From: Actinomycetes bacterium
GTDB taxonomy: Bacteria > Actinomycetota > Actinomycetes > S36-B12 > CAIYMF01
Assembly (NCBI GenBank): GCA_029781935.1
Contig: JAKOVT010000294.1
Location: 1-42,434 of the forward strand
Direction of reading: 5' to 3'
DNA: 42,434 bases
In this document: piece after piece, positions 22,075 through 42,434 of the stretch
Layout: every line of letters begins with the position of its first letter
Position numbering within the stretch: position 1 is the first letter of the stretch
Notes under the pieces: model-generated
What the model was told of the DNA's origin: nothing
Seen by the model: only the letters and a program-made list of their open reading frames with translations
Database searches by the model: none
Made by a program: the position numbers and the translations under genes

Positions 22075-22085
22075 CGATTCCGACC

Positions 22086-22622: not shown

Positions 22623-22661
22623 AACGAACGGCCTCCGGGCCGAAGAGTTGAAGGCGAAACG

Positions 22662-24273: not shown

Positions 24274-24275
24274 CG

Positions 24276-25112: not shown

Positions 25113-25118
25113 TCCCCC

Positions 25119-25393: not shown

Positions 25394-25397
<4 letters not shown>
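25119..25397 (+). CDS. rpsS: 30S ribosomal protein S19
   Basis: A 92-residue S19 of the 30S head. [15 protein letters not shown] and [20 protein letters not shown] are diagnostic. Length is normal. Its stop overlaps the rplV start by 4 bases (ATGA). Confidence 0.98.
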
Positions 25398-27033
<1,636 letters not shown>

Positions 27034-27157
27034 CGCCCCCATGGTCGCCTTCGCTCGCCTTCATGGTCGCCTCCGCCCGGTCGCGGTGACCGCCGTTCTG
27101 ATCGGGACGCTGCGGCTCGATGCTGCGCACGCGTGCTCGGCCCAGGAGTTGATGTAG
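27034..27157 (+). other. rpsC-rplP spacer, 124 bases, with direct repeat
   Basis: No gene seen. CATGGTCGCCT occurs at 27040-27050 and 27062-27072. A small stem CGGTC/GACCG lies at 27078-27092. The rplP ribosome site AGGAG is at 27144-27148. Neighbouring genes in this operon overlap or nearly touch, so this spacer stands out. Confidence 0.5.
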
Positions 27158-27574
27158 ATGTTGATGCCCAGAAAGGTCCGCCACCGGAAGGTGCAGCGCG
27201 GACGGATGAGCGGGACCGCCAAGGGCGGGACCAGGGTGACCTTCGGCGACTACGGCATCCAGGCGCTCGAGCCGGGCTGGATCACCAACCGCCAGATCGA
27301 GGCCGCCCGTATCGCGATGACCCGTCACATCAAGCGTGGCGGGAAGGTCTGGATCAACATCTTCCCGGACAAGCCCATCACCCAGAAGCCGGCCGAGACC
27401 CGGATGGGCTCGGGCAAGGGCAACCCGGAGCGCTGGGTCGCGGTGGTGAAGCCGGGCCGGGTGATGTTCGAGCTGTCCGGCGTGGCCGAGCCGCTCGCCC
27501 GCGAGGCGATGCGCCTCGCCATGCACAAGCTGCCGATCAAGACGCGCTTCGTGGTGCGTCACGACGAGGCGTGA
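27158..27574 (+). CDS. rplP: 50S ribosomal protein L16
   Basis: A 138-residue L16, which helps position tRNA in the A site. [19 protein letters not shown] and the [19 protein letters not shown] segment are diagnostic. The start ATG 27158 gives the family's usual MLMP beginning with AGGAG nine bases upstream. It ends 10 bases before rpmC. Confidence 0.98.
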
Positions 27575-27584
27575 GCAGGTCCTG

Positions 27585-27803
27585 ATGACGAAGGCAACGG
27601 AACTCCGAGAGCTGAACGACGGCGAGCTGATCCAGAAGCTCGCGGAAGCCCGGGAGGAGCACTTCAACCTCCGCTTCCAGCTGGCCACCGGTCAGCTCGA
27701 CAACTTCGGACGGCTGGGTGACGTGCGGCGTGAGGTCGCCCGTCTCAACACCCTGCTGCGCGAGCGCGAGATCGCGGCTGCCGAAGCGCAGCAGGAGGCG
27801 TGA
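27585..27803 (+). CDS. rpmC: 50S ribosomal protein L29
   Basis: A 72-residue L29 at the tunnel exit. The sequence [20 protein letters not shown] and [17 protein letters not shown] is typical of the two-helix family. Start ATG 27585. Its end lies at the beginning of rpsQ. Confidence 0.97.
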
Positions 27804-27823
27804 GCGACATGAGCGGAGATGCG

Positions 27824-28093
27824 ATGAGCGAGGAAACCACCGAGCGCAACCGGCGCAAGGTGCGCGAGGGCATCGTCGTGTCCACGAAGATGGACAAGAC
27901 GGTGGTCGTGAGCGTCGTGGACCGGGTCCAGCACCCGCGGTACCGCAAGACGTTGCAGCGCACCACGAAGCTCTACGCGCACGACGAGGCGAACGAGGTC
28001 CGCGACGGCGACCGGGTCCGGGTCGCCGAGACCCGCCCCCTGTCGAAGCAGAAGCGCTGGCGGATCGTGGAAGTCCTGGAGCGTGCGCGGTGA
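27824..28093 (+). CDS. rpsQ: 30S ribosomal protein S17
   Basis: An 89-residue S17, a primary 16S rRNA binder. [20 protein letters not shown] and [19 protein letters not shown] are diagnostic. I prefer ATG 27824 ([12 protein letters not shown]) because GGAG lies 5 bases before it and it matches actinobacterial S17 starts. ATG 27809 (GGAGG ten bases upstream) and GTG 27800 (4-base overlap with rpmC) are alternatives in the same frame. Its stop overlaps rplN by 4 bases. Confidence 0.95.
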
Positions 28094-28458
28094 TCCAGCA
28101 GGAGTCGCGGCTCAAGGTCGCGGACAACTCGGGCGCCCGCGAGGTGCTCTGCATCAAGGTGCTCGGCGGTACGCGCCGGCGCTACGCGGGCATCGGCGAC
28201 GTGTTCGTCGCGACGGTCAAGGACGCGACGCCGGGTGCCGCGGTGAAGAAGGGCGACGTCGTCAAGTGCGTGGTGGTGCGCACGAAGAAGGAGCGGCGCC
28301 GTCCCGACGGGAGCTACATCCGCTTCGACGAGAACGCGGCGGTGCTCATCAACGACCAGATGCAGCCGCGTGGCACCCGCATCTTCGGTCCCGTCGGCCG
28401 CGAGCTTCGCGACCGCAAGTTCATGCGGATCGTGTCGCTCGCACCGGAGGTGTTGTGA
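28090..28458 (+). CDS. rplN: 50S ribosomal protein L14
   Basis: A 122-residue L14, exactly the family length, at the subunit interface. [20 protein letters not shown] is diagnostic. The start is GTG 28090 in the sequence GTGA shared with the rpsQ stop. Its own stop shares one base with rplX. Confidence 0.98.
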
Positions 28459-28763
28459 TGAAGATCAAGAAGGGCGACACCATCCAGGTGATCGCCGGCA
28501 AGGACCTCGGCAAGGTCGGTCAGGTGACCCGGGTGCTCCCCGAGTCCGACCGCGTCATCGTCGACGGCGTGAACGTCGCCAAGCGCCACCAGCGGGCGAC
28601 GCGGGCGACCATGCAGGGCGGCATCATCGACAAGGACATGCCGATCCACGTCTCGAACGTGGCGATCGTCTGCACGTCCTGTGGCAAGCACACGCGCATC
28701 GGGTACCGCTTCGAGGGCGACACCAAGCTGCGCGTGTGCCGCAAGTGCGGGAAGGACCTGTGA
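28458..28763 (+). CDS. rplX: 50S ribosomal protein L24, zinc-ribbon form
   Basis: A 101-residue L24, an assembly initiator. The KOW segment [20 protein letters not shown] and [12 protein letters not shown] are present. The C-terminus holds two CxxC pairs ([13 protein letters not shown] and VCRKCGKDL) that would bind zinc; many actinobacterial L24 proteins have lost these cysteines. Start ATG 28458 shares one base with the rplN stop; the stop overlaps rplE (GTGA). Confidence 0.97.
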
Positions 28764-29329
28764 CCGTGGCGACCACGACCCCGCGTCTCAAGACCCGGTA
28801 CCTCGAGGAGCTGCGTCCGCAGCTCAAGACCGATCTCCAGCTCGGCAACGTGATGGAGGTTCCGCAGCTGGTGAAGATCGTCCTCAACATGGGCGTCGGC
28901 CGCGCCACGCAGCAGGCGTCCCTGCTCGACGGCGCCGTCGCCGACCTCACGCTCATCACGGGCCAGAAGCCCGCGGTGACCCGGGCGAAGAAGTCGATCG
29001 CGACGTTCAAGCTCCGTGAGGGCAACGCGATCGGCGCCAAGGTCACCCTGCGCGGTGACCGCATGTGGGAGTTCTACGACCGGCTCGTGAGCGTCGCGAT
29101 CCCCCGGATCCGCGACTTCCGCGGGCTCAACCCGAAGAGCTTCGACGGTCGGGGCAACTACACGTTCGGTGTCACCGAGCAGCTGATCTTCCCGGAGATC
29201 GACTACGACAAGATCGACACGGTGCGAGGGATGGACATCACCATCTGCACGACCGCCCGTTCCGACGACGAAGGGCGTGCACTGCTCCGCGCGCTCGGGT
29301 TCCCGTTCCGCCGTGAGGCACAGGGGTAA
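28760..29329 (+). CDS. rplE: 50S ribosomal protein L5
   Basis: A 189-residue L5, which binds 5S r[43 protein letters not shown] and [20 protein letters not shown] are diagnostic. GTG 28760 overlaps the rplX stop by four bases; GTG 28766 is a close alternative. rpsN starts 3 bases after its stop. Confidence 0.97.
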
Positions 29330-29332
29330 GAG

Positions 29333-29518
29333 ATGGCCAAGACAGCTCTCAAGAACAAGCAGCAGCGGGCTCCGAAGTTCAAGGTCCGCGCCTACACCCG
29401 CTGCCGTCGCTGCGGCCGGTCCCGTTCGGTGTACCGCAAGTTCGGTCTGTGCCGGATCTGCCTGCGCGAGCTCACGCACGCGGGTGAGGTTCCCGGTGTG
29501 ACCAAGGCGTCCTGGTAG
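29333..29518 (+). CDS. rpsN: 30S ribosomal protein S14, zinc-binding type Z
   Basis: A 61-residue S14 of the short zinc form (also called rpsZ). It has CxxC pairs in [11 protein letters not shown] and [11 protein letters not shown] and ends in GVTKASW, all typical. Two copies (zinc and zinc-free) exist in some actinobacteria; only this one is in the window. Confidence 0.97.
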
Positions 29519-29529
29519 GGGGTGAGCAG

Positions 29530-29934
29530 ATGACGATGACCGACCCGATCGCCGACATGCTCACGCGGATCCGCAACGCGAACATCGCGATGCACGATCT
29601 CACCGAGATGCCGGCGTCGAAGCTGAAGGTGGCCCTCGCCAAGATCCTCGAGCAGGAGGGCTACATCGAGGGCTTCGAGGTCGCCGACGACCCCAAGCGT
29701 CCCGGCGACAAGCTGACGATCACGATGAAGTACACGTCGGACCGCAAGCGCACGATCTCCGGGATCAAGCGCGTGTCCCGTCCCGGCCTGCGCGTCTACA
29801 AGGGTGCCGGCGAGGTGCCCCGCGTGCTCGGCGGAATGGGGATCTCGGTCCTCTCGACCAACCAGGGTCTGCTGACCGACCGTGAGGCGCGCAAGCGCCG
29901 GGTCGGCGGCGAGGTCCTGTGTCAGGTGTGGTGA
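29530..29934 (+). CDS. rpsH: 30S ribosomal protein S8
   Basis: A 134-residue S8, the spc-operon repressor in E. coli and a central 16S rRNA binder. TDPIADMLTRIRNANIAMHD and GISVLSTNQGLLTDREARK are diagnostic. Start ATG 29530, with ATG 29536 as an alternative; GGGGGTGAG precedes both. It ends 3 bases before rplF. Confidence 0.97.
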   Translation: MTMTDPIADMLTRIRNANIAMHDLTEMPASKLKVALAKILEQEGYIEGFEVADDPKRPGDKLTITMKYTSDRKRTISGIKRVSRPGLRVYKGAGEVPRVLGGMGISVLSTNQGLLTDREARKRRVGGEVLCQVW

Positions 29935-29937
29935 GCC

Positions 29938-30477
29938 ATGTCACGCATCGGTAAGGCCCCCATCTCCGTGCCCTCCGGCGTCGACGTGACGATCGACGGC
30001 TCGAGCGTCTCGGTGAAGGGCCCCAAGGGCACGCTCGCATGGGACGTGCCGGACGACATCACGGTCGTGCGCGACGGCGACACGGTCACCGTCACGCGTC
30101 CCGACGACGAGCGCTCGCACCGGGCGCTGCACGGCATGACGCGCTCGCTCGTGGCCAACATGGTCGTCGGCGTGTCGGAGGGCTTCCGCAAGGAGCTCGA
30201 GATCGTCGGCGTCGGCTACCGCGCCACGGCGCAGGGACCGTCGAAGATCGAGCTGCAGGTCGGCTACTCGCACCCGGTGCCGGTCGACGCCCCCGAGGGC
30301 GTCAGCTTCGAGGTGCCGGCGCCGAACCGAATCGTGGTGTCGGGCATCGACAAGCAGCTCGTCGGCCAGGTCGCGGCCGACATCCGCAAGATCCGCAAGC
30401 CCGAGCCGTACAAGGGCAAGGGCATCCGCTACGCCGGCGAGCGCGTCCTGCGCAAGGCCGGGAAGTCAGCGAAGTAG
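29938..30477 (+). CDS. rplF: 50S ribosomal protein L6
   Basis: A 179-residue L6 near the sarcin-ricin loop. [20 protein letters not shown], the VGYRATAQG segment and the C-terminal [19 protein letters not shown] are diagnostic. Length is normal. It lies between rpsH and rplR with very short gaps. Confidence 0.98.
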
Positions 30478-30482
30478 GGCCG

Positions 30483-30842
30483 ATGAACATCAAGACGCTC
30501 GACGGTCGGAAGCGCCGCCATCTGCGCGTGCGCAAGAAGGTGCGCGGCACCGCCGCGCGCCCGCGCCTCGCGGTGTTCCGGTCCAACCAGCACATCTACG
30601 CCCAGGTGATCGACGACGTCGCCGGTCGCACGCTCGCGAGCGCCTCCACGATGGAGACCTCGGTCCGCGGCGCCGGCTCCACCGGCACGGTGGCCGCCGC
30701 CAAGGCGGTCGGCGAGCGGGTCGGCGAGCGGGCCAAGCAGGCCGGCGTCGACACCGTCGTGTTCGACCGCGGCGGATTCAAGTACCACGGCCGGGTGGCC
30801 GCGGTGGCCGACGGCGCCCGCGGCGCCGGACTGGAGTTCTAG
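30483..30842 (+). CDS. rplR: 50S ribosomal protein L18
   Basis: A 119-residue L18, a 5S rRNA binder. [37 protein letters not shown] and the end [20 protein letters not shown] are diagnostic. ATG 30483, 5 bases after the rplF stop, gives the family length. rpsE begins 3 bases after its stop. Confidence 0.98.
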
Positions 30843-30845
30843 GAC

Positions 30846-31397
30846 ATGGCCAACGATTCGCAGTACGAAGAGCGCGTCATCGCGATCAACCGGGTCGCCA
30901 AGGTGGTCAAGGGCGGCCGGCGCTTCTCCTTCACCGCCCTCGTCGTGGTCGGCGACGGCAACGGCAACGTCGGGCTCGGCTACGGCAAGGCCAAGGAGGT
31001 ACCGGCCGCGATCCAGAAGGGCATGGAGGAGGCCAAGAAGAACCTCTTCTCCGTCCCGCTCGCCGGTTCGTCGATCACCCACGAGATCGTCGGTCGCCAC
31101 GACTCGGCGCGGGTGCTGCTGAAGCCCGCCGCGCCCGGTACCGGGGTCATCGCGGGTGGCGCCGCCCGTGCGATCCTCGAGGCCGCCGGCGTGCACGACG
31201 TGCTCGCCAAGTCCCTCGGCAGCTCGAACGCGATCAACGTCTCGCGTGCGACGATCGCCGGCCTCGCCGGTCTGCGTCGTCCCGACGAGGTGGCCAGGAT
31301 CCGCGGGAAGTCGGCCGAGGAGGTCAGCACCGTCGGAATGCTGAAGGCGTACCGCGAGCGCAACGCGAAGAAGACCGAGATCACCGAGGTCGCGTGA
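30846..31397 (+). CDS. rpsE: 30S ribosomal protein S5
   Basis: A 183-residue S5 affecting decoding accuracy. [40 protein letters not shown] and the [20 protein letters not shown] block are diagnostic. Start ATG 30846; the stop shares one base with the rpmD start. Confidence 0.98.
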
Positions 31398-31576
31398 TGA
31401 AGCTCCAGGTCACCCAGGTCCGTTCGACGATCGGCGTCAAGCCCAAGCAGCGCGGCACCCTCCGCGCGCTCGGGCTGCACGGCATCAACACGAGCCGGGA
31501 GCACGACGACACGCCGGTCATCCGCGGGATGATCCAGAAGGTCCCGCACCTCATCCGTGTCGAGGAGTTGAGCTAG
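31397..31576 (+). CDS. rpmD: 50S ribosomal protein L30
   Basis: A 59-residue L30. KLQVTQVRSTIGVKPKQRGT and TPVIRGMIQKVPHLIRVEE are diagnostic. ATG 31397 shares a base with the rpsE stop; a GTG directly before it (31394, 4-base overlap) would add one residue. rplO follows without a gap. Confidence 0.97.
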   Translation: MKLQVTQVRSTIGVKPKQRGTLRALGLHGINTSREHDDTPVIRGMIQKVPHLIRVEELS

Positions 31577-32068
31577 ATGAAGGTCCACGACCTCAAGCCC
31601 GCGGCGGGATCCCGACGCGCGCCGAAGCGCATCGCCCGTGGCATCGGCGGCAAGGGCGGCAAGACCGCCGGCCGCGGCTCCAAGGGCCAGGGCGCCCGCG
31701 ACACGATCAAGCCGGGGTTCGAGGGTGGCCAGACGCCGCTGCACCGGCGCATCCCGAAGGCCAAGGGCTTCAAGAACCCGTTCCGGGTCGAGTACCACGT
31801 GGTCAACCTCGACACCCTCGACGCGTTCGAGGCGGGCAGCGAGGTCTCTCCGGCCACGCTGCGGGCCCGGGGCCTCGTGGCCAAGCAGGGACTGGTGAAG
31901 GTCCTCGGCCGGGGCGAGCTGAGCAGGAGCCTCACGGTGAAGGCCCACGCCTTCTCGGCGTCGGCGAAGCAGGCCATCGAGGCCGCCGGCGGGAGCGTCG
32001 AGGTCGTGCCGGCGCCGTGGGGCGACCGCCGTCCGCCCGCGAAGGGCAACGCCCTCACCAACCGGTAG
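31577..32068 (+). CDS. rplO: 50S ribosomal protein L15
   Basis: A 163-residue L15, a late assembly protein. MKVHDLKPAAGSRRAPKRIA, the Gly-rich RGIGGKGGKTAGRGSKGQ and PGFEGGQTPLHRRIPKAKGF are diagnostic. ATG 31577 follows the rpmD stop directly. A hairpin and a 102-base gap separate it from secY. Confidence 0.98.
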   Translation: MKVHDLKPAAGSRRAPKRIARGIGGKGGKTAGRGSKGQGARDTIKPGFEGGQTPLHRRIPKAKGFKNPFRVEYHVVNLDTLDAFEAGSEVSPATLRARGLVAKQGLVKVLGRGELSRSLTVKAHAFSASAKQAIEAAGGSVEVVPAPWGDRRPPAKGNALTNR

Positions 32069-32090
32069 CCCGTCACATCCCGTCCCGGAG

Positions 32091-32109
32091 CCCCGGAAGC
32101 GTTCCGGGG
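32091..32109 (+). terminator. Perfect 8-bp hairpin between rplO and secY
   Basis: CCCCGGAA (32091-32098) and TTCCGGGG (32102-32109) form a stem around GCG, 23 bases after the rplO stop. It may be a partial terminator that lowers secY expression relative to ribosomal proteins. TAGTGT at 32123-32128 resembles the local -10 form but has no good -35. Confidence 0.5.
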
Positions 32110-32170
32110 TCCGGCTTGGCGGTAGTGTTCGAGCCCTCTCCGGGGACTCGTCGAGGAGGTCGTCACACCC

Positions 32171-33472
32171 ATGCTGTCCCGGCTGCGGAACATGTTCCGG
32201 GTGCCCGACCTGCGCAACAAGATCTTCTTCACGATCTTCATCGTGCTGATCTACCGCCTGGGGACCCACGTTCCGGTCCCCTACGTCGACTACGCGCAGA
32301 TCAAGGCGCTGCAGCACTCCTCGACGAACTCGGGCGTGGTCGGATTCCTCGACCTCTTCTCGGGCGGTGCGATCACCAGCGTCTCGGTGTTCTTCCTCGG
32401 GATCATGCCGTACATCACGGCGTCGATCATCATGCAGCTGCTCGGGGTCGTCATCCCGAAGCTCGAGCAGTGGCAGCAGGAGGGTCAGACCGGCCAGAAG
32501 AAGATCACGCAGTGGACCCGGTACGTCACCGTCGGCCTCGCGCTGCTGCAGTCGTCCGGCCTGGTGATCGCCCTGCACGAGGGTAAGCAGGGCCTCCTGC
32601 AGACGATCGGCTTCCAGGGCAAGGACATGATCCCGCACTACAACGGGCTGCGGGCCGCGCTGATCGTGATGACGTGGGTGGCCGGCACCGCGCTGGTCAT
32701 GTGGCTGGGTGAGCTGATCACCCAGCGGGGTATCGGCAACGGCATGTCGATCATCATCTTCGCCTCGGTCGTGTCCCGCCTGCCCGCGCAGGGCGGCGCG
32801 ATCTTCGCCGAGGGCGGCTGGTTCAAGGGCGTGGTGATCATCCTCATCGGCATCGCGATGATCACCGGCATCGTCTTCGTCGAGTCGGGTCAGCGGCGAA
32901 TCCCGGTGCAGTTCGCGAAACGGGTCGTGGGCCGGCGCATGTACGGCGGCCAGAGCACCTACATCCCGCTCAAGGTCAACCAGTCCGGGGTGATCCCGGT
33001 GATCTTCGCGAGCTCGATCCTCGCGTTCCCGGCGCTGATCGCCACGGCCACCAACTGGACGTGGCTGCAGAACTTCGCCAACGACTACCTGGTGAAGGGC
33101 ACCAGCTGGGTGTACATGTTCCTGTACTCGCTGATGATCCTGTTCTTCGCGTACTTCTACACGGCGATCGCGTTCAACCCGCAGCAGCAGGCGGACATCA
33201 TCCGCAAGCAGGGCGGGTTCATCCCTGGCATCCGCCCGGGACCGCCCACCGAGAAGTACCTCGCGAAGGTCCTGAATCGCATCACGTTGCCCGGTGCGAT
33301 CTTCCTGATGATCATCGCCCTGGTACCGCTGCTCGTGTTCAAGCTGTGGAACATCAGCCAGTTCCCGTTCGGCGGGACCGCGTTGCTCATCACGGTGGGG
33401 GTGGCGCTCGAGACGATGAAGCAGATCGACAGCCAGCTCATGATGCGCAACTACGAGGGCTTCCTCTCCTGA
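32171..33472 (+). CDS. secY: Preprotein translocase subunit SecY
   Basis: A 433-residue ten-span SecY, the protein-conducting channel of the Sec translocon. MLSRLRNMFRVPDLRNKIFF, the plug region after RLGTHVPVPYVD, the VVIPKLEQWQQEGQ segment and the cytoplasmic RRIPVQFAKRVVGRRMYGGQ loop are conserved. GAGGAGG precedes ATG 32171. It partners with SecE encoded at 5705-5992. adk follows 7 bases after its stop. Confidence 0.98.
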   Translation: MLSRLRNMFRVPDLRNKIFFTIFIVLIYRLGTHVPVPYVDYAQIKALQHSSTNSGVVGFLDLFSGGAITSVSVFFLGIMPYITASIIMQLLGVVIPKLEQWQQEGQTGQKKITQWTRYVTVGLALLQSSGLVIALHEGKQGLLQTIGFQGKDMIPHYNGLRAALIVMTWVAGTALVMWLGELITQRGIGNGMSIIIFASVVSRLPAQGGAIFAEGGWFKGVVIILIGIAMITGIVFVESGQRRIPVQFAKRVVGRRMYGGQSTYIPLKVNQSGVIPVIFASSILAFPALIATATNWTWLQNFANDYLVKGTSWVYMFLYSLMILFFAYFYTAIAFNPQQQADIIRKQGGFIPGIRPGPPTEKYLAKVLNRITLPGAIFLMIIALVPLLVFKLWNISQFPFGGTALLITVGVALETMKQIDSQLMMRNYEGFLS

Positions 33473-33479
33473 GGGTCTG

Positions 33480-34061
33480 ATGTCGGCGCGGCGAGGACCA
33501 CGCATCGTCCTGCTGGGGAAGCAGGGCTCGGGCAAGGGCACGCAGGGCGTACGTCTCGCGCGCCACTACGGCATGCAGCACCTGTCGACCGGGCAGATGT
33601 TCCGTGACTCCGCCGAGGTCGGCGTGCGCGCCGGGCTCGAGGCCAAGGAGTACATGGACCGGGGTGAGCTGGTGCCCGACGACCTCGTGATCGCGGTCGT
33701 GGAGGAGCGGTTCGGCAACCCCGGCGAGGTGCACCCCGGCTTCGTGCTCGACGGGTTCCCGCGCACCCGCCAGCAGGCACTCGAGCTCGACCGGATCCTC
33801 GGCGAGCACGGCCTCGACATCGTGATCGACCTCGAGGTCCCGAGCGACGTCGTCGTGGAGCGCATGCGCTCGCGCGGCCGCGAGGACGACACCGAGGAGT
33901 CGATCCGGCGGCGTCTCGCGCTCTACGAGTCCGAGACCAAGCCGCTCGTCGACTTCTACCGCGACCGGTCGCTGCTCGTCACCGTCGACGGGCTCGGGAG
34001 CGAGGAGGACGTCGAGCGGGCGCTGCTCGCCGCGATCGCGAGCCGCTTCGGCGCTCCGTGA
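33480..34061 (+). CDS. adk: Adenylate kinase
   Basis: A 193-residue adenylate kinase (ATP + AMP to 2 ADP). The P-loop reads GKQGSGKG (residues 13-20), where most family members have GPPGAGKG, so two positions before the Gly-Lys differ. DGFPRT (about 91-96) for AMP binding and a short LID (SRGREDDTEESIRRRL) without a zinc domain are present. It lies between secY and map; its stop overlaps map by 4 bases. Confidence 0.96.
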   Translation: MSARRGPRIVLLGKQGSGKGTQGVRLARHYGMQHLSTGQMFRDSAEVGVRAGLEAKEYMDRGELVPDDLVIAVVEERFGNPGEVHPGFVLDGFPRTRQQALELDRILGEHGLDIVIDLEVPSDVVVERMRSRGREDDTEESIRRRLALYESETKPLVDFYRDRSLLVTVDGLGSEEDVERALLAAIASRFGAP

Positions 34062-34807
34062 CGCTGCGCAAGTCCCCGGCGCAGATCCGCATCATGCGGC
34101 GGGCCGGGCGCGTCGTGGCCGAGATGCACTCGGTGTGCGCGGCGATGGCCCGACCCGGGGTGACCACCGCGGAGATCGACCGGGCCGCCCGTGAGGTCCT
34201 GGCCCGTCGGGGGGCGCGATCGAACTTCCTCGGGTACCACGGCTTCCCGGCCGTCGTGTGCACGTCGCCGAACGACGTCGTCGTCCACGGCATCCCCGGT
34301 GGCTACGCCCTCGAGGAGGGCGACATCATCTCGCTCGACTGCGGGGCGATCATCGACGGCTGGCACGCCGACGCGGCGATCACCGTCGGCGTCGGCGAGA
34401 TCGAGCCGGACGCGCGGCGCCTGATCGACACCGCGGTGCACAGCCTCGACGCCGCCATCGCCGAGCTCGCCACCGGGCGCACCCTCGCCGACGTCGGCGG
34501 CGCGGTGGAGGCGGTCGCGACGGAGGCCGGGTACTCGATCGTGCGTGAGTACGTGGGCCACGGGATCGGCACCGCGATGCACGAGGCGCCCGAGATCCCG
34601 AACTACCGGACGGTGCGCGGGCGGCGGACGAAGCTGCAGACCGGCATGGTGCTCGCGATCGAGCCGATGCTCACCACCGGCACGGCCGAGACCGCGGTCC
34701 TCGAGGACGACTGGACCGTGGTGACCGTCGACGGCGGACTCGCCGCGCACGTGGAGCACACCGTCGCCCTGACCGAGGACGGCCCGGAGATCCTCACGCG
34801 GCCGTGA
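34058..34807 (+). CDS. map: Methionine aminopeptidase, type I
   Basis: A 249-residue enzyme that removes the initiator Met. The metal ligands D94, D105, H168, E202 and E233 and the substrate His H77 are all present in the expected motifs (SLDCGAIIDGWHADAA, GHGIGTAMHE, IEPML, VEHT). The start is GTG 34058, overlapping adk (GTGA). It is the last gene of the ribosomal run; infA, rpmJ, rpsM and rpoA do not follow here. Confidence 0.97.
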   Translation: MTLRKSPAQIRIMRRAGRVVAEMHSVCAAMARPGVTTAEIDRAAREVLARRGARSNFLGYHGFPAVVCTSPNDVVVHGIPGGYALEEGDIISLDCGAIIDGWHADAAITVGVGEIEPDARRLIDTAVHSLDAAIAELATGRTLADVGGAVEAVATEAGYSIVREYVGHGIGTAMHEAPEIPNYRTVRGRRTKLQTGMVLAIEPMLTTGTAETAVLEDDWTVVTVDGGLAAHVEHTVALTEDGPEILTRP

Positions 34808-34822
34808 GCCGCCTCCGGCTCA
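34805..34822. terminator. Bidirectional hairpin made of both convergent stop codons
   Basis: TGAGCCG (34805-34811) and CGGCTCA (34816-34822) pair perfectly around CCTC. The left arm begins with the map TGA and the right arm ends with the TCA that is the stop of the minus-strand acetyltransferase. A short, compact signal that could end transcription from both sides. Confidence 0.5.
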
Positions 34823-35539
34823 GGCGGACGGTCGGTCGTCGAGCCAGTAGTGGAACTTGTACTGGCAGGCCACGACGCTGAATCCGCAGCCCTCGACGTA
34901 GCGGAGCACCGCGATGTTGCGTGCCGCGCACGGTCCCGCCTCGGTCGGACCGCCGTCGGCCCACTCGAAGAGCCCGTTCATCAGCGCCTGCGATGCGCCG
35001 GTCCCCGGCTTCGTGACCCCCATGAGGTCGACGCGGTGGACCGGGGTGCGGACGTTGGTGGAGAGGCCGGTGACCCCGTCGTCGTCCTCGGCGATGAGCA
35101 GCAGGTGCTCCTCGCCGTCGTGGGCGGCGCGTTCGACCCAGGCCCCGAACATGCGGCGCGCCGCCTCGTGGCCGAACCGCGGGTCCGAACCGAACCGGCT
35201 CCACGGCCCCAGCACCGAGATCGCGTGCTCGAGCCGGGGCAGGTCCTCGGGCGTCCCCCGTCGGACCCGTGACGTGGTGGGGCGCGGCGTGAAGGGGCCG
35301 GCGGGGCGGCCGAACCGGAGCGCGACCTCGACGAGACGGTGTCCGTGCGCCTGGACGAGGAACGCCTCGTCGGTGTCGATCTCGTCCAGCGTGCCGTAGA
35401 CGCACGCGAGCCCGAGGTCCCGGGCCTGCTCGTCGACGGCGCGCAGCATCTCGGGGGTGGCGCCCTCGAGCGCCACCCGGCCGATGGGGAAGCCGAAGAA
35501 CTCGGAGTCCCAGGGCAGGGGCTCGACCCGGGCCGTCAT
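34820..35539 (-). CDS. GNAT acetyltransferase, WecD/RffC-like sugar N-acetyltransferase
   Basis: A 239-residue GNAT protein. The N-terminal LPWDSEFFGFPIGRVAL is the signature of WecD/RffC-type enzymes, which acetylate the amino group of dTDP-4-amino-4,6-dideoxygalactose or related sugars; the C-terminal half (LLLIAEDDDGVTGLS, TGASQALMNGLFEWA, AARNIAVLRYVEGCGFSVV) is a GNAT fold. ATG 35539 overlaps the kinase-like gene stop (ATGA). As the last gene of the minus-strand operon it suggests amino-sugar decoration of a glycan, though the sugar substrate is inferred. Confidence 0.8.
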   Translation of the reverse strand: MTARVEPLPWDSEFFGFPIGRVALEGATPEMLRAVDEQARDLGLACVYGTLDEIDTDEAFLVQAHGHRLVEVALRFGRPAGPFTPRPTTSRVRRGTPEDLPRLEHAISVLGPWSRFGSDPRFGHEAARRMFGAWVERAAHDGEEHLLLIAEDDDGVTGLSTNVRTPVHRVDLMGVTKPGTGASQALMNGLFEWADGGPTEAGPCAARNIAVLRYVEGCGFSVVACQYKFHYWLDDRPSA

Positions 35540-36510
35540 GGGGTCGGATCGTATCCGGCGGGCGTCGCGGGTCGGTCGGGCAGGAGGCCCTGCGCACGCA
35601 GGTGGTCGACGGTGGCACGCACGGCGCCCTCGTCGGCCGCGCCGCGCGCGACCCCGAGCCCGACGAGCGCGTCGGCCACGCCGCCGGCGTCCGGCACCGA
35701 GGCCCACACGACGGCCGCGTCGCCGGCGAGGAGGTGCACCCGTCCGGTGACCGCGTCGTGCACGACGAGCTCGGTGCCGAGCTCGACGGTCGTCGTCGAC
35801 GGCGTGATCGGCCCGAGGACCGGCGTCGGCGCCACCGCGGTGGCGGGGGCCTCCGCCAGCTCCCGCACCAGGGCGACCGGTTCGGCGGCCGCCGGATAGG
35901 TGGTCTCCCATGCCGGGCAGGCGCGTGCGAGACCGGCGATCCACGGCAGCGCGGCGCCGCCCAGGCGGCCGAGATTGGTCGCGTGGGCCGCCAGCGCCAG
36001 GACCGCCCCGCCCGGGGTCAGTGCGGTGCGCCCCGGCGGCGCCTCCGGCGCGAACCGGGGGAACACGATGCCGCCGGGCGCCAGCTGCGGCGCGACGGCG
36101 TCGGCGCGGAGGGCCGATGCCGGCACGAGCCCGGCCGCGCCGAGATCGAGCGGCTTCGGGTACGCCGCGATGGTGCCCGTCCGCCGATCGAGCGCCGCGT
36201 ACTCGTCGGACAGATACGAGAGCCCGGCGCGGATGCAGGCCGCGGCGAGGGTGGACTTGCCGGCGCCGGAGGCGCCGGGCAGCAGGACGGCGCTGCGGTC
36301 GCCGACGACGGCTGCGTGGACGAGCAGGTGGGGAGCCATGGTGGCGGCGACCGTGTTGAGCCACCACACGACGGTGGCGGCCGCGACCGACTCCTCGACG
36401 CCGCGGTGCGCGACCGCGCCGTCGGCCACCAGGCGCCAGGTCCCGCCCGACTCCCGCTCGACCACGAGCTCACGCGCGGCACCGTCGGCGACGACGAGGT
36501 CGCCGACCAC
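35536..36510 (-). CDS. HPr kinase-like P-loop protein fused to a PqqD-like domain
   Basis: At least 324 residues. The P-loop GASGAGKST (about 79-87) preceded by LLVHAAVV and followed by SYLSDEYAALD resembles HPr kinase/phosphorylase and the HprK-related kinases of RiPP and exopolysaccharide clusters. Residues 240-312 (ELVVHDAVTGRVHLLAGDAA ... VDHLRAQGLLP) look like a PqqD domain. GTG 36510 is the first standard start, but the frame is open and protein-like upstream to 36582 (IVVDVLGIRVAL), so the true start may be a rare codon there. It overlaps the acetyltransferase by 4 bases. Phosphate acceptor unknown. Confidence 0.75.
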   Translation of the reverse strand: MVGDLVVADGAARELVVERESGGTWRLVADGAVAHRGVEESVAAATVVWWLNTVAATMAPHLLVHAAVVGDRSAVLLPGASGAGKSTLAAACIRAGLSYLSDEYAALDRRTGTIAAYPKPLDLGAAGLVPASALRADAVAPQLAPGGIVFPRFAPEAPPGRTALTPGGAVLALAAHATNLGRLGGAALPWIAGLARACPAWETTYPAAAEPVALVRELAEAPATAVAPTPVLGPITPSTTTVELGTELVVHDAVTGRVHLLAGDAAVVWASVPDAGGVADALVGLGVARGAADEGAVRATVDHLRAQGLLPDRPATPAGYDPTP

Positions 36511-36578
36511 GGTCGCCAGCTCCGCCGCCAGCGCCGGGGGCGCCGACAGGGCGACCCGGATGCCGAGGACGTCGACGA

Positions 36579-39530
36579 CTATCGGGTCGCCTCCGGCACG
36601 GGCCGGCCGGTCACCGCGGCGGCGACGTCGACCGCCTCGTCCTGTCTTCGGACGGGACGGACGGCCAGGAGCACGAAGAGGGCCGGGAGCACGAGCGATC
36701 GTTGTCGCACGAGGATCCCGAAGTTGGCGAACGACGCGAACGTCATCGCGTAGAGGATCGTCAGGACCCAGCAGTAGAGCAGGAACGGGGTCTCGCGCCC
36801 GCGGGAGAGCGACGTCCGGATCGACGAGAACCGCACGACCAGCGCGCCCGCGAGGATGACCGTCTCGAGCGAGGCGACGAGCCCGAGGGGGCTACCGGCC
36901 TCCCACGGGAACGGCCGCAGCAGCACGGTGGCGAAGCCGCGCGGCAGGTTGACGGGGCTCAGGTAGTCGCCACCGGTGTCGAAGCTCGACCCGCCCTCGC
37001 CGGTCTGCTGGGCCTGGGTGTTGAGGGTCTGTTCGACCGAGTTCAGTGACAGGTCCTTCATGCCCAGGAACTTCATGCCCTGACCGACCGTGAACGCGAC
37101 GAGCACCGCGATGACGACGAGCCCGATGGTGCGCGTGGCGACGCCCTTGTTCGGGTCCCGGGGCCGGAACATCCCGACGATGTAGGCGAAGCCGGATGCG
37201 ATGGTGACGAGCGCGAGCAGGTGCGGACGCACGACCCACAGCACCCACCCGCCGGCGAAGCCGAGGAGCAGACCCTTGATGAGCCGCTGCTTGAGGAAGA
37301 ACGCGGTCGCGAGCGCCATCGCCCCGATCCCGAGCTGCATCAGCGACTCCTTGCCGATGGAGCTCGGCCAGAACGCGATGCTCGGAGCGAAGAGCACGAG
37401 GAAGAGGTAGAGGCGCTTGTCGATGAAGGGGACCGACTCGACGGTCGCGCGGTACCAGAGGTACGAGCCCACGAGCGCCAGCAACCCGAAGATGAAGAAG
37501 CCGGCGACCATGTGGTCGCCGAAGACGTAGTACACGACGCCGGTGAACCACCGGAGGAAGTTGGTCTTGCGCAGGTCCTGGAGGTAGGGCTCGACCCCCT
37601 GCCCCATCCACGCCTTGGCGAACTCGCGTCCGTACTGGTCGAACCCGGCGGCGTCGCCGTTGCCGTTGTACGACGAGACGAGCGTGTAGTAGCGGAACAG
37701 CGACGCGAGGATCTTGACGACGACGCCGGCGATGAGCCAGTCGCCGACCCAGGCCTCGTCCGGCCGGGTGCGGGCGAGGCGCCGCGCCATGGCCATCGCG
37801 AACAGCAGGCCCGCGACGGGGACGAGGACCACGCCGGAGAACGCGATGCCGGTCCGCGCGATGGCCGCGGTGAGGAGCAGCGCGACCACGCCGCCGACGA
37901 AGTACCGGGTGCCGGTCTCGTACGCAGCGGCGGGTGCGGTCGTCGGGCCGGTGGCCGGTTCGGGGGCGCCGGGACCCGGGCGGGGCTCGCCTCCCGGTGG
38001 CCGGGGAGGTGGTGTGCGCGCGCCGCCGCGGTCGGCGTCGCCCGCCACGGGGCGCGGCGGGCGGGCGGCGGCCCACCGCTGCTGTCGGCTGACGGGCCCG
38101 GTCGTGTCGCGCGTCGTGGCCCGGGGTCGGAGCTGCGCGTGCTCGACCGCCGCCGCCGACAGGGACGCCCGCGCCAGGGCCACGGTGGCCCGGGGAACCC
38201 GCGGCGGGAGATCGACGGCGCGTGGGCCGACCTGCCCCGTCCCGTCGATGGTGCCGATCGGGCCCACGACCGCCGGCAGCCGGGGCGTCGGTCCACCCGG
38301 CGCACGCCGGAGCGGGCGAGGCGCCGCCGCGGCGGCGTCGGGGCGCGGCTCGGGGGGCTCGGGCCGGGCGGACAGCGGCGGGAGCACCGGCGGGACGGGC
38401 GCACCGGCCTCGGGCTCGCCCGCGGGTCCCGCGACCGGGTCCGGGGACGGCGGGCGCGCACCGCGCGACCGCTCGGAGAGGGTGCGCCAGCGCCGCCAGT
38501 ACAACGAGGGGGTGGACCCCTCGCCGTAGGTGAACCGCAGGAACTCGCGCGACGGCAGGACGAGCGAACGGGCGACGGCGATGCGCCGGCGGATCCCGCC
38601 GCCCCGCAGCTCCTCCATGCGTCGCTGCGAGGAGCGGTCCTCGGGCGCCACCGCCGCGTCGACGGACTCCCGCGGCTCGGAGCGGCCGGCGAGCTCGACG
38701 AGGGGGATCGGGAGCTCGGCGCCGACGTGCTCGGTCGCGGCCCGTACCGCGGCGGCCACCGTCGACGTCAGCTTCCAGCGCCGGGCCAGCTCGACGGCGT
38801 GCTCCGCGTCGACCTCGGGGTGACGGGCGACCTGGACGACGTCCCGGATCGACAGCGCGCGCGACAGACCGTCGCCGATGACCGCGTGCGCGCAGACCTC
38901 GACGAGGTGCGCGTCCCACGACGGGGCCGGCACCGGCCGGCCGTTGACCGTCACCGTCGTCCGGTCGGCGAGGATCTCGGGCACCGACACCGTCGCCCCG
39001 GCGAGGCCGGGGACGAGCGTCCGGTGCAGGTCGATGACGACGCCACCGGGGTGGACGAGGGTCAGGGCCTTGCCGATCGTGGCGTCGTAGCCGCGGATCG
39101 GCTCGGGCCGGGAGCGCGTGTACCCGAGGGTGCCGAGCGCCGCGACCGCCTCCTCGTGGCGGTCGCCGGTCACGAGGAGATCGAGGTCGGTGAAGGGACG
39201 GAGCGCGGGGTCGGGGTAGGCGGCGTGCGCGAGGACCGCGCCCTTGAGCACGACGGCGTCGAGCTCGGCGAGGACGGATTCGAGGCGGATGAGCTCACCC
39301 TCGAGCTGCACCGCGCGGATGGCCTCGGAGTCGAGGCGGGCGCGGAGGCGGTCGGCCGTGCCCGGGTCGAGGTCGACGAGACCCTCGTCCGCGGCGGCGG
39401 CGAGGAAGCCGGCGAGCCGGTGGGTGACCACGTCGTCCCAACGCGCCGCCCAACCGTCGCGCGGGAGGCGCGCCGGGTCGGAGCAGCCGACGCCCGCGAG
39501 CGCGAGGATCGCCGGGTCGATGGTGCTCAC
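36579..39530 (-). CDS. Nucleotidyltransferase (PF14907-like) fused to a polytopic membrane protein
   Basis: A 983-residue protein with three parts. Residues 1-355 resemble the uncharacterised nucleotidyltransferases of PF14907: VVLKGAVLAHAAYPDPALRP (K96-G97), TDLDLLV with D115 and D117, and VVIDLHRTL with D167. Residues 355-540 are a Pro/Ala/Arg-rich linker. Residues 541-960 contain about a dozen membrane helices with the loop FAPSIAFWPSSIGKE (714-728), a pattern I associate with exopolysaccharide polymerase-like proteins. The reading frame is continuous, so this is one gene unless an unseen internal start splits it. It overlaps the PqqD gene (ATGA). Function inferred: glycan polymerisation or tailoring. 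Confidence 0.75.
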   Translation of the reverse strand: MSTIDPAILALAGVGCSDPARLPRDGWAARWDDVVTHRLAGFLAAAADEGLVDLDPGTADRLRARLDSEAIRAVQLEGELIRLESVLAELDAVVLKGAVLAHAAYPDPALRPFTDLDLLVTGDRHEEAVAALGTLGYTRSRPEPIRGYDATIGKALTLVHPGGVVIDLHRTLVPGLAGATVSVPEILADRTTVTVNGRPVPAPSWDAHLVEVCAHAVIGDGLSRALSIRDVVQVARHPEVDAEHAVELARRWKLTSTVAAAVRAATEHVGAELPIPLVELAGRSEPRESVDAAVAPEDRSSQRRMEELRGGGIRRRIAVARSLVLPSREFLRFTYGEGSTPSLYWRRWRTLSERSRGARPPSPDPVAGPAGEPEAGAPVPPVLPPLSARPEPPEPRPDAAAAAPRPLRRAPGGPTPRLPAVVGPIGTIDGTGQVGPRAVDLPPRVPRATVALARASLSAAAVEHAQLRPRATTRDTTGPVSRQQRWAAARPPRPVAGDADRGGARTPPPRPPGGEPRPGPGAPEPATGPTTAPAAAYETGTRYFVGGVVALLLTAAIARTGIAFSGVVLVPVAGLLFAMAMARRLARTRPDEAWVGDWLIAGVVVKILASLFRYYTLVSSYNGNGDAAGFDQYGREFAKAWMGQGVEPYLQDLRKTNFLRWFTGVVYYVFGDHMVAGFFIFGLLALVGSYLWYRATVESVPFIDKRLYLFLVLFAPSIAFWPSSIGKESLMQLGIGAMALATAFFLKQRLIKGLLLGFAGGWVLWVVRPHLLALVTIASGFAYIVGMFRPRDPNKGVATRTIGLVVIAVLVAFTVGQGMKFLGMKDLSLNSVEQTLNTQAQQTGEGGSSFDTGGDYLSPVNLPRGFATVLLRPFPWEAGSPLGLVASLETVILAGALVVRFSSIRTSLSRGRETPFLLYCWVLTILYAMTFASFANFGILVRQRSLVLPALFVLLAVRPVRRQDEAVDVAAAVTGRPVPEATR

Positions 39531-39829
39531 GGCGCCGGTCGGGCGAGGTCGGCCCGGACGAGGCCCTGCGCGAAGTCGAGGACGACCCGCTCGACCTCCT
39601 CGGTGGAGCTTCGCGTCCGGTCGGCGAGGTCCACGGCCGCCTCGGCGACGCTGGCGCCGCCGGCGAACGCCTCCCAGAGGTCAGGGCCCGCGCCGCCGAG
39701 GCGCTGGACCGCCGCCGTCGCGCCGCCCACGTTGACGAGCAGGTCGCCGCCGACCCGGCGGGTCGCCGCGGGGACCAGCGCCAGGCGGCTCCGCCGGTCG
39801 AGGCGCGGTGCGTCCGGCGCCGGCTCCAT
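39527..39829 (-). CDS. PqqD-family protein
   Basis: A 100-residue PqqD-like protein. The pattern VGGDLLVNVGGATAAVQRLG, GPDLWEAFAGGASVAEAAVD and VVLDFAQGLVRADL matches the small winged-helix fold that binds RiPP precursor peptides. ATG 39829 shares one base with the upstream stop, and its stop overlaps the fusion gene (ATGA). PqqD is known as a peptide chaperone for radical SAM and other modifying enzymes; none is encoded in this window, so its partner here is probably the nucleotidyltransferase or kinase-like protein. Confidence 0.78.
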   Translation of the reverse strand: MEPAPDAPRLDRRSRLALVPAATRRVGGDLLVNVGGATAAVQRLGGAGPDLWEAFAGGASVAEAAVDLADRTRSSTEEVERVVLDFAQGLVRADLARPAP

Positions 39830-41454
39830 CAGGTGGGTTCGCTCACCATCGCCACGCCGAAGGGCGTCCCGCCCGCCAGTTCGAGCCGGGACGCGGCCTC
39901 GCGGGCCTCCTGGTCGGTGACCTGGCCGGCCTCGATGACCCAGAGCACGCTCCGGGTGCTCCAGGCGAAGATCGTCGCCGACGGGTCCTCGAGCAGCGCC
40001 GGTCCGGCGATGACGATCACGTCGACGCCGGCCGACGCCAGTCCCTCGAAGAGGCGTGGCAGGCCCTCGAGCAGGTCGTCGGCCTGGACCTCGCTGGGAG
40101 CCACGACCGTGAGGTTCGACAGGTCGCTCGTGACGAGCCGCTCGCGGATCTGGCCGTTGAGCCGACCGCTCTGGGCGACGGCGATCATGTCGGTCAGCGT
40201 GGGCGCGCCGGTCGCGGTGACCGCGTCGACGTACCACGACTGCCGGTCGTCGGTCGCGATCAGCGCCACGTCGAGGCCGAGATCGGCGAGGGCGCGGGCG
40301 AAGTTGGCGGCGACGCCGTCCTGCGCGTCGCCGACGGGCGACGTGACGACGATCGCGCGGGGCAGCTGGTCGGTCGCCACGCTGGTGGTGGCGAGCGCGC
40401 GGTAGGCGGCGTCGAGCGCGGATCCCGGGAGCGCGAGGCGGGCGAGGTCGGCCTCCGAGTGCACGGGCAGGGTCGACAGGACGGGCGCGCCGAGGGCCTT
40501 CATGGCCGATCGGGGCTCGCGGATGGTGCGGTCGAGCACGTCGATGAGCACCGGCACGCCGATGGCGAGGAGCACGCCGAGGCCGAGCGCCACGCCGACG
40601 GGCATCCAGGGCGAGGGGACCGGCGGGACGATCTCGGTCGGGTTGGGCCGCTCGACCACCGTCGCGAACGACGACGGGGTCAGCGCGTCGGCGCTGCTGT
40701 CGGCGTACTTCTGGCGGGCGACCGCGATGCGGTCGACGAGCGCGCGGTGCTGCGACGCGAGCAGGACCACGTCGGTGTTCGCGTCAGGAGGCAGGTAGAC
40801 GGCCGGGGGCGTCTGGCCCGGCGCCGTGGCCGCGGTCTGCGTGGCGTCGAAGGCCCGCAGCTGGTTCAGCACGTTGGCGTCGAGGGCCTGGAGCTGGGTG
40901 TCGACCTGGGCGAGCTGGTTCTTGTACACCTCGAGCGACGTGCGTGCGCCCTTGGTGCTCCCGTTGTCGTCCTCGCCGACCTTCTTCCGGCGGGCGTTGC
41001 TGTACGAGTCGGAGTAGGCGTCGATCAGCTTCACGGCCTGGGCCTGCTCGGGCGCGGTGACCGTCAGGGTGAGGATGTCGCCCTTGCCCGTGGTCTGGTT
41101 CCCCGTCTTGCCCGCCGTCGCGCTGGGGTCGAAGTTCGTCTTGAAGCCGAACGTCACGCGGTCGCGGTCGTCGCCCTTGATCCCGGCGGCGTCCATCGCG
41201 GCGGCGGTGGTCTCGCTGGAGAGCGCGATCTGGGCCTGCCCCTGGAGGAGCTCGGCCGGCACCCCGGCGGGCAGGGCCCCGTCCTTGCCGCGAACGGGGA
41301 CGAGCAGCAGCACCTGGGCCTGCCACTTGTCGCTCCCGCGAGCCTGCTTCCGGGTGAAGAGGAAGACGCCGAGCCCGATGATGGACAACAGGAACATCGC
41401 CACCGAAACCCGCCAATGGCGACGAACCGATCCGATGACGTCAGCGAACTGCAT
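39829..41454 (-). CDS. Wzz-like chain-length protein with degenerate BY-kinase-like P-loop domain
   Basis: A 541-residue protein. A membrane helix at about 14-33, a coiled extracytoplasmic region (about 35-280) and a second helix (283-305) form the Wzz/polysaccharide co-polymerase layout. The C-terminal domain (about 345-541) resembles tyrosine autokinases, but the Walker A position reads TSPVGDAQDGVAANFA (371-386) without Lys-Ser/Thr, and the Walker B position reads VDVIVIAGPALLED without the Asp-Thr-Pro motif. No C-terminal Tyr cluster is present. The start ATG 41454 has GAGGA just upstream. It heads the operon. Likely a regulator of glycan chain length without kinase activity. Confidence 0.85.
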   Translation of the reverse strand: MQFADVIGSVRRHWRVSVAMFLLSIIGLGVFLFTRKQARGSDKWQAQVLLLVPVRGKDGALPAGVPAELLQGQAQIALSSETTAAAMDAAGIKGDDRDRVTFGFKTNFDPSATAGKTGNQTTGKGDILTLTVTAPEQAQAVKLIDAYSDSYSNARRKKVGEDDNGSTKGARTSLEVYKNQLAQVDTQLQALDANVLNQLRAFDATQTAATAPGQTPPAVYLPPDANTDVVLLASQHRALVDRIAVARQKYADSSADALTPSSFATVVERPNPTEIVPPVPSPWMPVGVALGLGVLLAIGVPVLIDVLDRTIREPRSAMKALGAPVLSTLPVHSEADLARLALPGSALDAAYRALATTSVATDQLPRAIVVTSPVGDAQDGVAANFARALADLGLDVALIATDDRQSWYVDAVTATGAPTLTDMIAVAQSGRLNGQIRERLVTSDLSNLTVVAPSEVQADDLLEGLPRLFEGLASAGVDVIVIAGPALLEDPSATIFAWSTRSVLWVIEAGQVTDQEAREAASRLELAGGTPFGVAMVSEPT

Positions 41455-41515
41455 GCGTTCCTCGTGCCGTGGGCTGGGGCGGACGGTCGACCGCGCTCCG
41501 TCGCCCGGGCGGTTC

Positions 41516-41567
41516 CCGGACTGGGGGTCGACGCCCGCTGCGGGAGGCAATGGTACCCCCAGCCCGG
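41516..41567. repeat. Nested inverted repeat in the divergent promoter region
   Basis: CTGGGGGT (41521-41528) and ACCCCCAG (41555-41562) are exact complements; CCGG extends the arms after one mismatch. A smaller CCCG/CGGG stem (41534-41544) lies inside. It is within the 203-base region between the Wzz-like and GT39-like genes and could be an operator or an mRNA leader stem. TACGAT at 41618-41623 is a possible -10 for the rightward gene. Confidence 0.5.
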
Positions 41568-41657
41568 CCGGCCGAGGACGCGGCCCCGGCGTGACGGGGA
41601 GGGCCGGCGACGAGAGGTACGATTTCGGCTCGCTTTCGCTGGGAGTCCGCGGGTCGT

Positions 41658-42434
41658 ATGAGCGATTACTGGGAGGTCGCGGCCGAGGATCGCGTCGACG
41701 CGCCGGCCGCTGACGTACCGGACGATCCCGGGGACGACGGCCTGGCCCCACCGCCGAGGCCGCCGGCGCCGGCCGAGGCGCCCCCGGAGGACCGCCCGGC
41801 GACCGGTCGGGCCGCCCGCGCGTCGGGTCCGTGGACCCGGCACCGGTTCTGGCTGGGTCTGGGCGCGATCGCCGTGGTCGGCGCGGCGCTGCGGCTCTGG
41901 CGGGTCCTGGGCGATCACCGGGCGTCCATCGGCAATGACGGGGCCGACTTCCACCTGAGTGGGATCCGTCTCGCCGACGGCCACGGGTTCGTGAACACGC
42001 TCTCGGCCCTCGACGTGCCGGCGGCGCCCCATCCGCCCGGCTGGTCGCTCACGCTCGGCGCGGTCTCGTGGCTCGGCGGGCGCAGCATCGAGACCCATCA
42101 GCTGGTGGCGGCGGCGCTCGGCGTGCTCCTCGTCGTCCTCGCCGGACTCGTCGGCCGCCGGTACTTCAACCCCCGGGCCGGCCTGGTCGCGGCCCTGCTC
42201 GTGGCGGTCTACCCCGGCTTCTGGCTCGTGGAGAGCGACGTGCTCGGCGAGCCGTTGACCCTGGTGGTCCTGGCCGTGGCGATGCTGCTGGTGGCCGACC
42301 TGCGCGATCGGCCGACGCTCGGCCGCACGGCGTTGGTCGGCGCCGTGTGCGGCGTGCTGGCGATGACCCGGTCGGACGCGCTCCTGTACCTCGTCCTGGT
42401 CGTCGTGCCCGTGCTCGCGGCGGGCGGGGGGGGG
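41658..42434 (+). CDS. GT39-family-like membrane glycosyltransferase, 5' part (259 codons)
   Basis: An incomplete gene running off the right edge. After a Pro/Asp/Glu-rich N-terminal 60 residues there is a membrane helix (about 64-83), then SIGNDGADFHLSG (acidic residues D94 and D97, as in the first-loop catalytic motif of GT-C enzymes), HPPGWSLTLG (125-134), and LGEPLTLVV (197-205). These are hallmarks of the PMT/ArnT-like GT39 superfamily, which use polyprenyl-phosphate sugars. The last bases are a run of G and may be a contig-end artefact. Divergent from the glycan operon, so it probably acts in the same pathway. Confidence 0.8.
   Translation, partial: MSDYWEVAAEDRVDAPAADVPDDPGDDGLAPPPRPPAPAEAPPEDRPATGRAARASGPWTRHRFWLGLGAIAVVGAALRLWRVLGDHRASIGNDGADFHLSGIRLADGHGFVNTLSALDVPAAPHPPGWSLTLGAVSWLGGRSIETHQLVAAALGVLLVVLAGLVGRRYFNPRAGLVAALLVAVYPGFWLVESDVLGEPLTLVVLAVAMLLVADLRDRPTLGRTALVGAVCGVLAMTRSDALLYLVLVVVPVLAAGGGG

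Follow-up and report, generated by a model that had tools for sequence, protein, structure and literature searches.

Related systems and the operon of contig JAKOVT010000294.1

The linear polyphosphorylated peptides (LPP) are a system of ribosomally synthesized and post-translationally modified peptides (RiPPs) whose enzyme set consists of a RiPP recognition element (RRE), an HprK-like kinase, a nucleoside triphosphate (NTP) transferase, a SipW-like signal peptidase and an exporter, and which is stated to be confined to Bacillota, where its clusters lie frequently within capsule loci (PMC13381572). Discrete RREs bind the motif [Y/W]xxPx[L/V/I/F/A] in the leader, and the kinase LppK phosphorylates Ser 3 of the LPP core, 18 residues after the Tyr (PMC13381572). 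It has also been reported that in pseudomycoidin the kinase PsmK phosphorylates a Ser, and that the nucleotidyltransferase-like PsmN is needed for the addition of a hexose to that phospho-Ser (PMC9266682). Paeninodin-type lasso clusters contain PqqD and HprK as well as PF14907 enzymes (PMC9266682, PMC13381572). A comparable set is described here from contig JAKOVT010000294.1 of Actinomycetota, the whole 42434 nt of which form the window. With moderate confidence, its segment 34820-42434 is interpreted as a glycan-assembly operon carrying an RRE-HprK-nucleotidyltransferase module whose target, across the wider actinobacterial family, is a protein that leaves through the twin-arginine translocation (Tat) pathway.

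By its parts and its motif, the module is best read as an actinobacterial, Tat-exported counterpart of LPP, embedded in glycan synthesis. A discrete RRE, an HprK-like kinase and a PF14907-like NTP transferase are all in the window, and the context is likewise that of capsule and exopolysaccharide. The Tat proteins of relatives carry the [Y/W]xxPx[LVIFA] leader motif with a Ser 18-19 residues after the aromatic residue, and their leader would be removed by a signal-peptidase type of enzyme. The motif W-x-x-P-x-[VIL] was derived here before PMC13381572 was consulted. The system differs from LPP in that it belongs to Actinomycetota, that the leader in relatives is a complete Tat signal, that the precursors there are secreted or LPxTG-anchored proteins of 100-400 aa, and that in the window the nucleotidyltransferase is fused to a GT-C glycosyltransferase domain and HprK to an RRE. 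A SipW-like signal peptidase I and an MsbA-like exporter are not among the six genes of the segment, the contig ending inside the sixth. No LPP-type precursor with a YxxPxVLxHQxIxFETxxS leader was found in the window either, relatives carrying WxxPx[VIL] inside the Tat signal instead.

The sequence-only reading of this DNA had related the set to the HPr-rel-A system. The models TIGR04352 and TIGR04353 are the best family matches for the kinase and its C-terminal PqqD domain, respectively, but the scores (97.2 bits against a curated cut-off of 200, and 25.4 bits against 35) lie below the cut-offs, so that the window set is not a formal member.

A Tat-exported protein with an RRE motif in relatives

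That the operon has no visible peptide substrate, as had been noted from the letters alone, holds for this contig but not for this kind of module. In the neighbourhoods of relatives, small secreted proteins with a Tat signal adjoin PqqD, the nucleotidyltransferase or HprK, and the signal itself contains W-x-x-P-x-[VIL], that is to say, the published RRE-binding motif. A first regular-expression scan for Tat signals gave 49 matches against 31 on the reversed sequence; since this was too noisy alone, a profile was used. Of its 40 matches, 33 were Tat/WxxP proteins lying within 1 kb of the module. Two Arg, the Trp and the Pro are the four invariant positions, first in 16 and then in 31 diverse signals; W stood in the first search pattern, so that its invariance in the seed is by construction, and the later profile searches did not demand it. 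Row 15 of the seed alignment A2, in all else identical to the L054 signal, begins with D where T is correct, by which the motif is unaffected. Scored independently, the relatives' Tat proteins lie above the cut-offs of the NCBIfam models TAT_signal_seq and LPXTG_anchor. All 16 proteins of the Pro-rich, mostly LPxTG-anchored group have a Ser at +19 from the W.

The association extends to whole genomes, for which the statistics on the kinase and the Tat/WxxP proteins rest on genome-search matches. In 38 genomes, all 22 matches at E ≤ 1e-10 lay within 5 kb of an HprK match, 0.12 being expected, some of the counted loci having also served to seed profile A2. In a sample of 296 genomes of the phylum, a Tat/WxxP-profile match was present in 9 of the 10 genomes with a strong kinase (E < 1e-40) and in 10 of the 286 others (Fisher p 2e-11), where most matches are long unrelated Tat proteins. 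Seven of the nine strong-kinase genomes have the match within about 2 kb of the kinase, and three loci of this sample (L293, L294 and L295) hold the Tat protein together with nucleotidyltransferase, PqqD, HprK and GT-C and/or Wzz genes. Where the module has no adjoining Tat/WxxP protein (17 genomes), a match exists elsewhere in 12, two of them weak and that of L142 without the W. None of seven genomes selected because their GT-C locus lacks the module has a Tat/WxxP match; L119 was initially picked as such a module-free control, and its genome does have the kinase. Among Tat-like signals unlinked to HprK, the motif occurs in only 2 of 22, one of these not being a real signal. The literature searched, the coverage of which was incomplete, did not describe any RRE that acts on a Tat signal.

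Several single cases were also observed. Knoellia (L107, L112) and Janibacter (L143) are among the relatives that have the module with a local Tat/WxxP protein. The two related genomes of L078 and L060 (G226, G240) have 5-6 HprK matches and 7-8 Tat/WxxP matches, and in places a kinase is flanked by the latter on both sides. In L049-L068, a PqqD-HprK pair and, at a distance of about 200 bp, a Pro-rich Tat protein that often has an LPxTG anchor are encoded divergently; this minimal two-enzyme form belongs mostly to large actinobacterial genomes, mostly with no nucleotidyltransferase, Wzz or GT-C gene detected nearby. G755, G765 and G783 have small Tat-profile matches of 143-146 aa and no strong HprK, which may reflect incomplete genomes or another use of the signal.

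Gene layout, folds and conservation of the operon

The segment consists of five closely packed minus-strand genes and one divergent plus-strand gene of GT39 type, as the sequence-only reading had described it, and its domain calls were borne out by Pfam and NCBIfam scans of the six proteins. The features are as follows, with scores from structural comparison given as Z and model confidence as the predicted local distance difference test (pLDDT).

39829..41454, minus strand: Wzz-like chain-length protein with a bacterial tyrosine kinase (BY-kinase)/ParA-like domain, Walker A lysine lost (SPVGDAQDGVAANFA); NCBIfam eps_fam E 3e-7, P-loop alignment
39527..39829, minus strand: stand-alone PqqD-like RRE; PF05402 24.3 bits (cut-off 23.4), family profile matching PDB 5v1u and 9x8z
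38517..39524, minus strand: PF14907 nucleotidyltransferase domain with K-G, R, DxD and DxH intact; PF14907 125 bits, alignment, model pLDDT 90.5, MenT1 Z 14.9, ANT(2'')-Ia Z 12.0
37911..38516, minus strand: Pro/Ala-rich linker between nucleotidyltransferase and membrane domain, in frame with no stop; reading frame, weaker codon-position signal 0.83/0.76/0.90
36579..37910, minus strand: predicted membrane glycosyltransferase domain of GT-C fold, in which the loop following the residue 50-80 helix has an invariant Asp; alignment of 42, AlphaFold pLDDT 90.5, ArnT Z 19.0, OST/PglB Z 15-18
35848..36582, minus strand: HprK-like kinase domain with His, GxSGxGKST and DE intact, start ATA 36582 or GTG 36510; TIGR04352 (HprK_rel_A) E 9e-28, alignment
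35536..35847, minus strand: second PqqD/RRE domain, C-terminal on the kinase; TIGR04353 (PqqD_rel_X) E 2e-5, profile match 35572-35796
34820..35539, minus strand: WecD-like GNAT acetyltransferase; NF008212 (PRK10975) E 3.5e-14
41658..42434, plus strand: divergent GT39/PMT-like membrane glycosyltransferase (PMT_2), interrupted by the contig end at 42434; PF13231 34.8 bits

The three short overlaps reported earlier are present: one base between Wzz and PqqD (TGATG), and four bases each between PqqD and the nucleotidyltransferase (GTGA) and between HprK and GNAT (ATGA). At the fourth junction, between the nucleotidyltransferase and HprK, a 4-base ATAG overlap exists only with the rare ATA start at 36582, the next standard start being GTG at 36510. 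The kinase coding sequence is taken to extend to 36582, because L083 starts with MVDVLG where the window has VVDVLG.

The stand-alone PqqD passes the PF05402 cut-off as a discrete member of the RRE/PqqD family, and the family profile matches two solved RREs, TbiB1 (5v1u, E 2.6e-12) and LppB (9x8z, E 4e-8). The kinase retains its His, P-loop and DE residues. The nucleotidyltransferase belongs to PF14907 by family score and by the presence of the catalytic DxD; a PDB sequence search with its profile gave nothing useful, whereas structural comparison of its model placed the fold close to MenT1 and ANT(2'')-Ia. The Wzz/BY-kinase domain, whose degenerate P-loop had been called correctly, does not qualify as a Wzc/CpsD tyrosine kinase, its Walker A lysine being absent.

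The fusion gene encodes 983 aa, of which the C-terminal 443 residues are the membrane half. When this half was aligned with 41 relatives, one Asp in the loop after a transmembrane helix was invariant in 42 of 42. The best structural match of its model is ArnT (5f15, root-mean-square deviation 4.3, 295 residues aligned), and many oligosaccharyltransferases and protein O-mannosyltransferases follow at Z 15-18; Foldseek alone gave weak E-values, the best being 0.02. According to the model, the membrane half has a GT-C glycosyltransferase fold, by which the earlier call of a nucleotidyltransferase-membrane fusion is refined, while the fusion itself holds in frame through a linker of weaker codon-position pattern. 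The domain resembles ArnT and the oligosaccharyltransferases in fold and in the invariant Asp, but at only about 10-15% identity, and its substrate may not be theirs. A Wzy-type polymerase was rejected as its identity, since enzymes of the ArnT/oligosaccharyltransferase type match best and the O-antigen ligase WaaL far lower (Foldseek rank 23, TM 0.22), which is no proof. Relatives have two separate adjoining genes for the nucleotidyltransferase and the GT-C protein, and the fusion in the window is therefore probably derived.

With the GT-C domain alone as query, 80 loci were fetched, of which 79 were kept after one duplicate had been dropped. Wzz is present in 61 of them, PqqD in 36, the nucleotidyltransferase in 31 and HprK in 24, and every one of the 24 HprK-carrying loci has PqqD. 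Where at least 9 kb was available on both sides (39 loci), HprK occurs in 17, and HprK, PqqD and the nucleotidyltransferase together in 14, set against about one genome in ten for an HprK-type kinase (30/296 at E ≤ 1e-15); the genes of the module thus co-occur far beyond chance. L083 and L147 have the exact order of the window (Wzz, PqqD, nucleotidyltransferase, GT-C, HprK, PqqD). Judged from sequence, the neighbouring genes in relatives include glycosyltransferases, a sugar-phosphate transferase, a UDP-sugar dehydrogenase, a DegT aminotransferase and polysaccharide-deacetylase-like proteins. The earlier view that the set is embedded in envelope glycan synthesis is supported.

In L293 (9233-9970) and L094 (15150-15926), HprK and PqqD have between them a gene for a protein of about 250 aa; the two proteins are alike by eye, and that of L293 has no Pfam or NCBIfam match. 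Chloroflexota-type genomes (L100, L118, L132, L141, L145 and L157) have the GT-C domain too, whether accompanied by Wzz or not, with no HprK in the stretch fetched. In L077 (7369-7668), a short open reading frame with MQEQYQAPVLEVVGSVADVTGG adjoins a PqqD and resembles a lasso precursor.

Proposed mechanism and its alternatives

Exported proteins are probably tagged by the set while still inside the cell. Tagging before Tat export fits, since ATP and NTPs are confined to the cytoplasm and Tat transports proteins in their finished form. In the proposed pathway, the operon would serve glycan assembly through Wzz, the GT-C enzyme and the WecD-like acetyltransferase, together with the RRE-HprK-nucleotidyltransferase module. 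The RRE would grip W-x-x-P-x-[VIL] inside the Tat signal, the HprK-like kinase would phosphorylate the Ser just past the signal-peptide cleavage site, and the PF14907 enzyme would add a further group, either a hexose or a nucleotide. The modified protein would then leave through Tat and reach the surface, beside or linked to the exopolysaccharide, and the GT-C domain, fused to the nucleotidyltransferase in the window, may extend the tag or join glycan to it. This mechanism is suggested by the shared RRE motif, by the Ser at +19 against +18 in LPP, by the PqqD profile matches to 5v1u and 9x8z, and by the precedent of PsmK and PsmN. Gene content, conservation, intact catalytic residues, folds and the association with Tat/WxxP proteins are observations; binding by the RRE, phosphorylation of the Ser, what the nucleotidyltransferase makes, a connection to glycan and a corresponding substrate in the window's own organism are inferred. 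The sequence-only reading had suggested that the operon may couple a peptide or a PqqD-bound carrier to polysaccharide assembly; an exported protein as the coupled partner now appears likely.

Several points weigh against this account. Neither the window and its bin G000 nor the genome of L083, the window's closest relative, yielded a Tat/WxxP protein, and the substrate search of the bin gave only ordinary Tat proteins with no W. More than half of the GT-C/Wzz loci have no HprK, and the module is therefore accessory to glycan synthesis and not part of its core. In the exopolysaccharide group of Tat proteins, the Ser is placed less strictly, standing at +17 in 10 of 14, and the mature parts vary widely. 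Given the seeding of profile A2, only the 296-genome sample is largely independent, and LppN was inactive in the published heterologous system (PMC13381572). As for the bin, the absence of a substrate says little, because Map and Adk of the contig are too divergent from the supposed genus: Map is 52-55% identical to members that share 67-91% with each other, and Adk 44-51% identical to members that share 71-90%. Map is nearer to other Acidimicrobiia-type genomes (60-66%), and the contamination of the bin is 8.7%. On these identities and this figure, the contig is probably foreign to its bin, that is, a contaminant.

It is conceivable, though unlikely, that the module acts on a small molecule, a lipid carrier or a glycan intermediate of the exopolysaccharide, the Tat proteins being mere neighbours in the same surface structure. 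That neither the window nor its closest relative has a Tat/WxxP protein to go with the module would agree with this, as would the fusion of the nucleotidyltransferase to a GT-C enzyme, which ties it to glycan chemistry. However, the RRE motif of the Tat signals, with its invariant W and P, would be left unexplained, and so would the HprK-Tat pairing of L049-L068, where no Wzz or GT-C gene was detected nearby.

Less probable still is an LPP-like or other RiPP whose short precursor, with no Tat leader, is encoded either immediately outside the contig or at an unlinked site in the genome of the true host. The contig does end 0.8 kb into the neighbouring gene, and the nearest relatives of the window, L083 and L087, also have no Tat/WxxP match; most module-bearing relatives, however, have Tat/WxxP proteins, locally or elsewhere in the genome.

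A regulatory role, in which HprK would make up for the kinase activity that the degenerate Wzz has lost and would control chain length through phosphorylation, is highly improbable. The window's Wzz without the Walker A lysine does share an operon with an intact HprK, but the P-loop is intact in nearly all HprK loci, and degenerate P-loops occur without HprK in L084, L085, L101, L109, L127, L138 and L144. The degenerate form is common to the window, L083, L084 and L085 with or without HprK, and is therefore not compensated by it; for lack of any correlation, compensation was rejected and the explanation is largely refuted. The insertion of an ordinary lasso-peptide cluster, whole or as a remnant, into a glycan locus is just as remote a prospect and is refuted for this segment: it shares an HprK-like kinase, a PF14907-like enzyme and a PqqD-family RRE reading W/Y-x-x-P with the paeninodin and pseudomycoidin clusters (PadeK, PsmK, PsmN), but precursor A, B2 protease and cyclase C are absent from its six genes, and its enzymes are intact and conserved in order across relatives, not decaying.

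If the Tat-protein reading is extended, one may tentatively suppose a widespread actinobacterial protein-polysaccharide conjugation, in which the Tat signal doubles as an RRE-read leader and surface proteins are modified by HprK and the PF14907 enzyme in the cytoplasm, exported through Tat and joined to exopolysaccharide by the GT-C transferase. The link of this enzyme set to capsule loci has already been made by the LPP work in Bacillota (PMC13381572). For the HprK/PqqD/nucleotidyltransferase sets of Actinomycetota, which had lacked an explanation, the present analysis offers a candidate class of substrates, with the motif for recognition defined and a probable site of modification. If true, RRE-guided modification would reach beyond small peptides to whole surface proteins, with leader and export signal merged into one, and the recurrence of such sets in capsule and exopolysaccharide loci, a question left open by the LPP paper (PMC13381572), may be explained.

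Finally, the operon follows immediately on a cluster of ribosomal-protein genes with secY, adk and map (22000-34820), and it converges with map. In the window, map is followed by this operon instead of infA, and Map and Adk are outgroups to the supposed genus; in the genome of L083, the gene called after map (L278) is likewise not infA.

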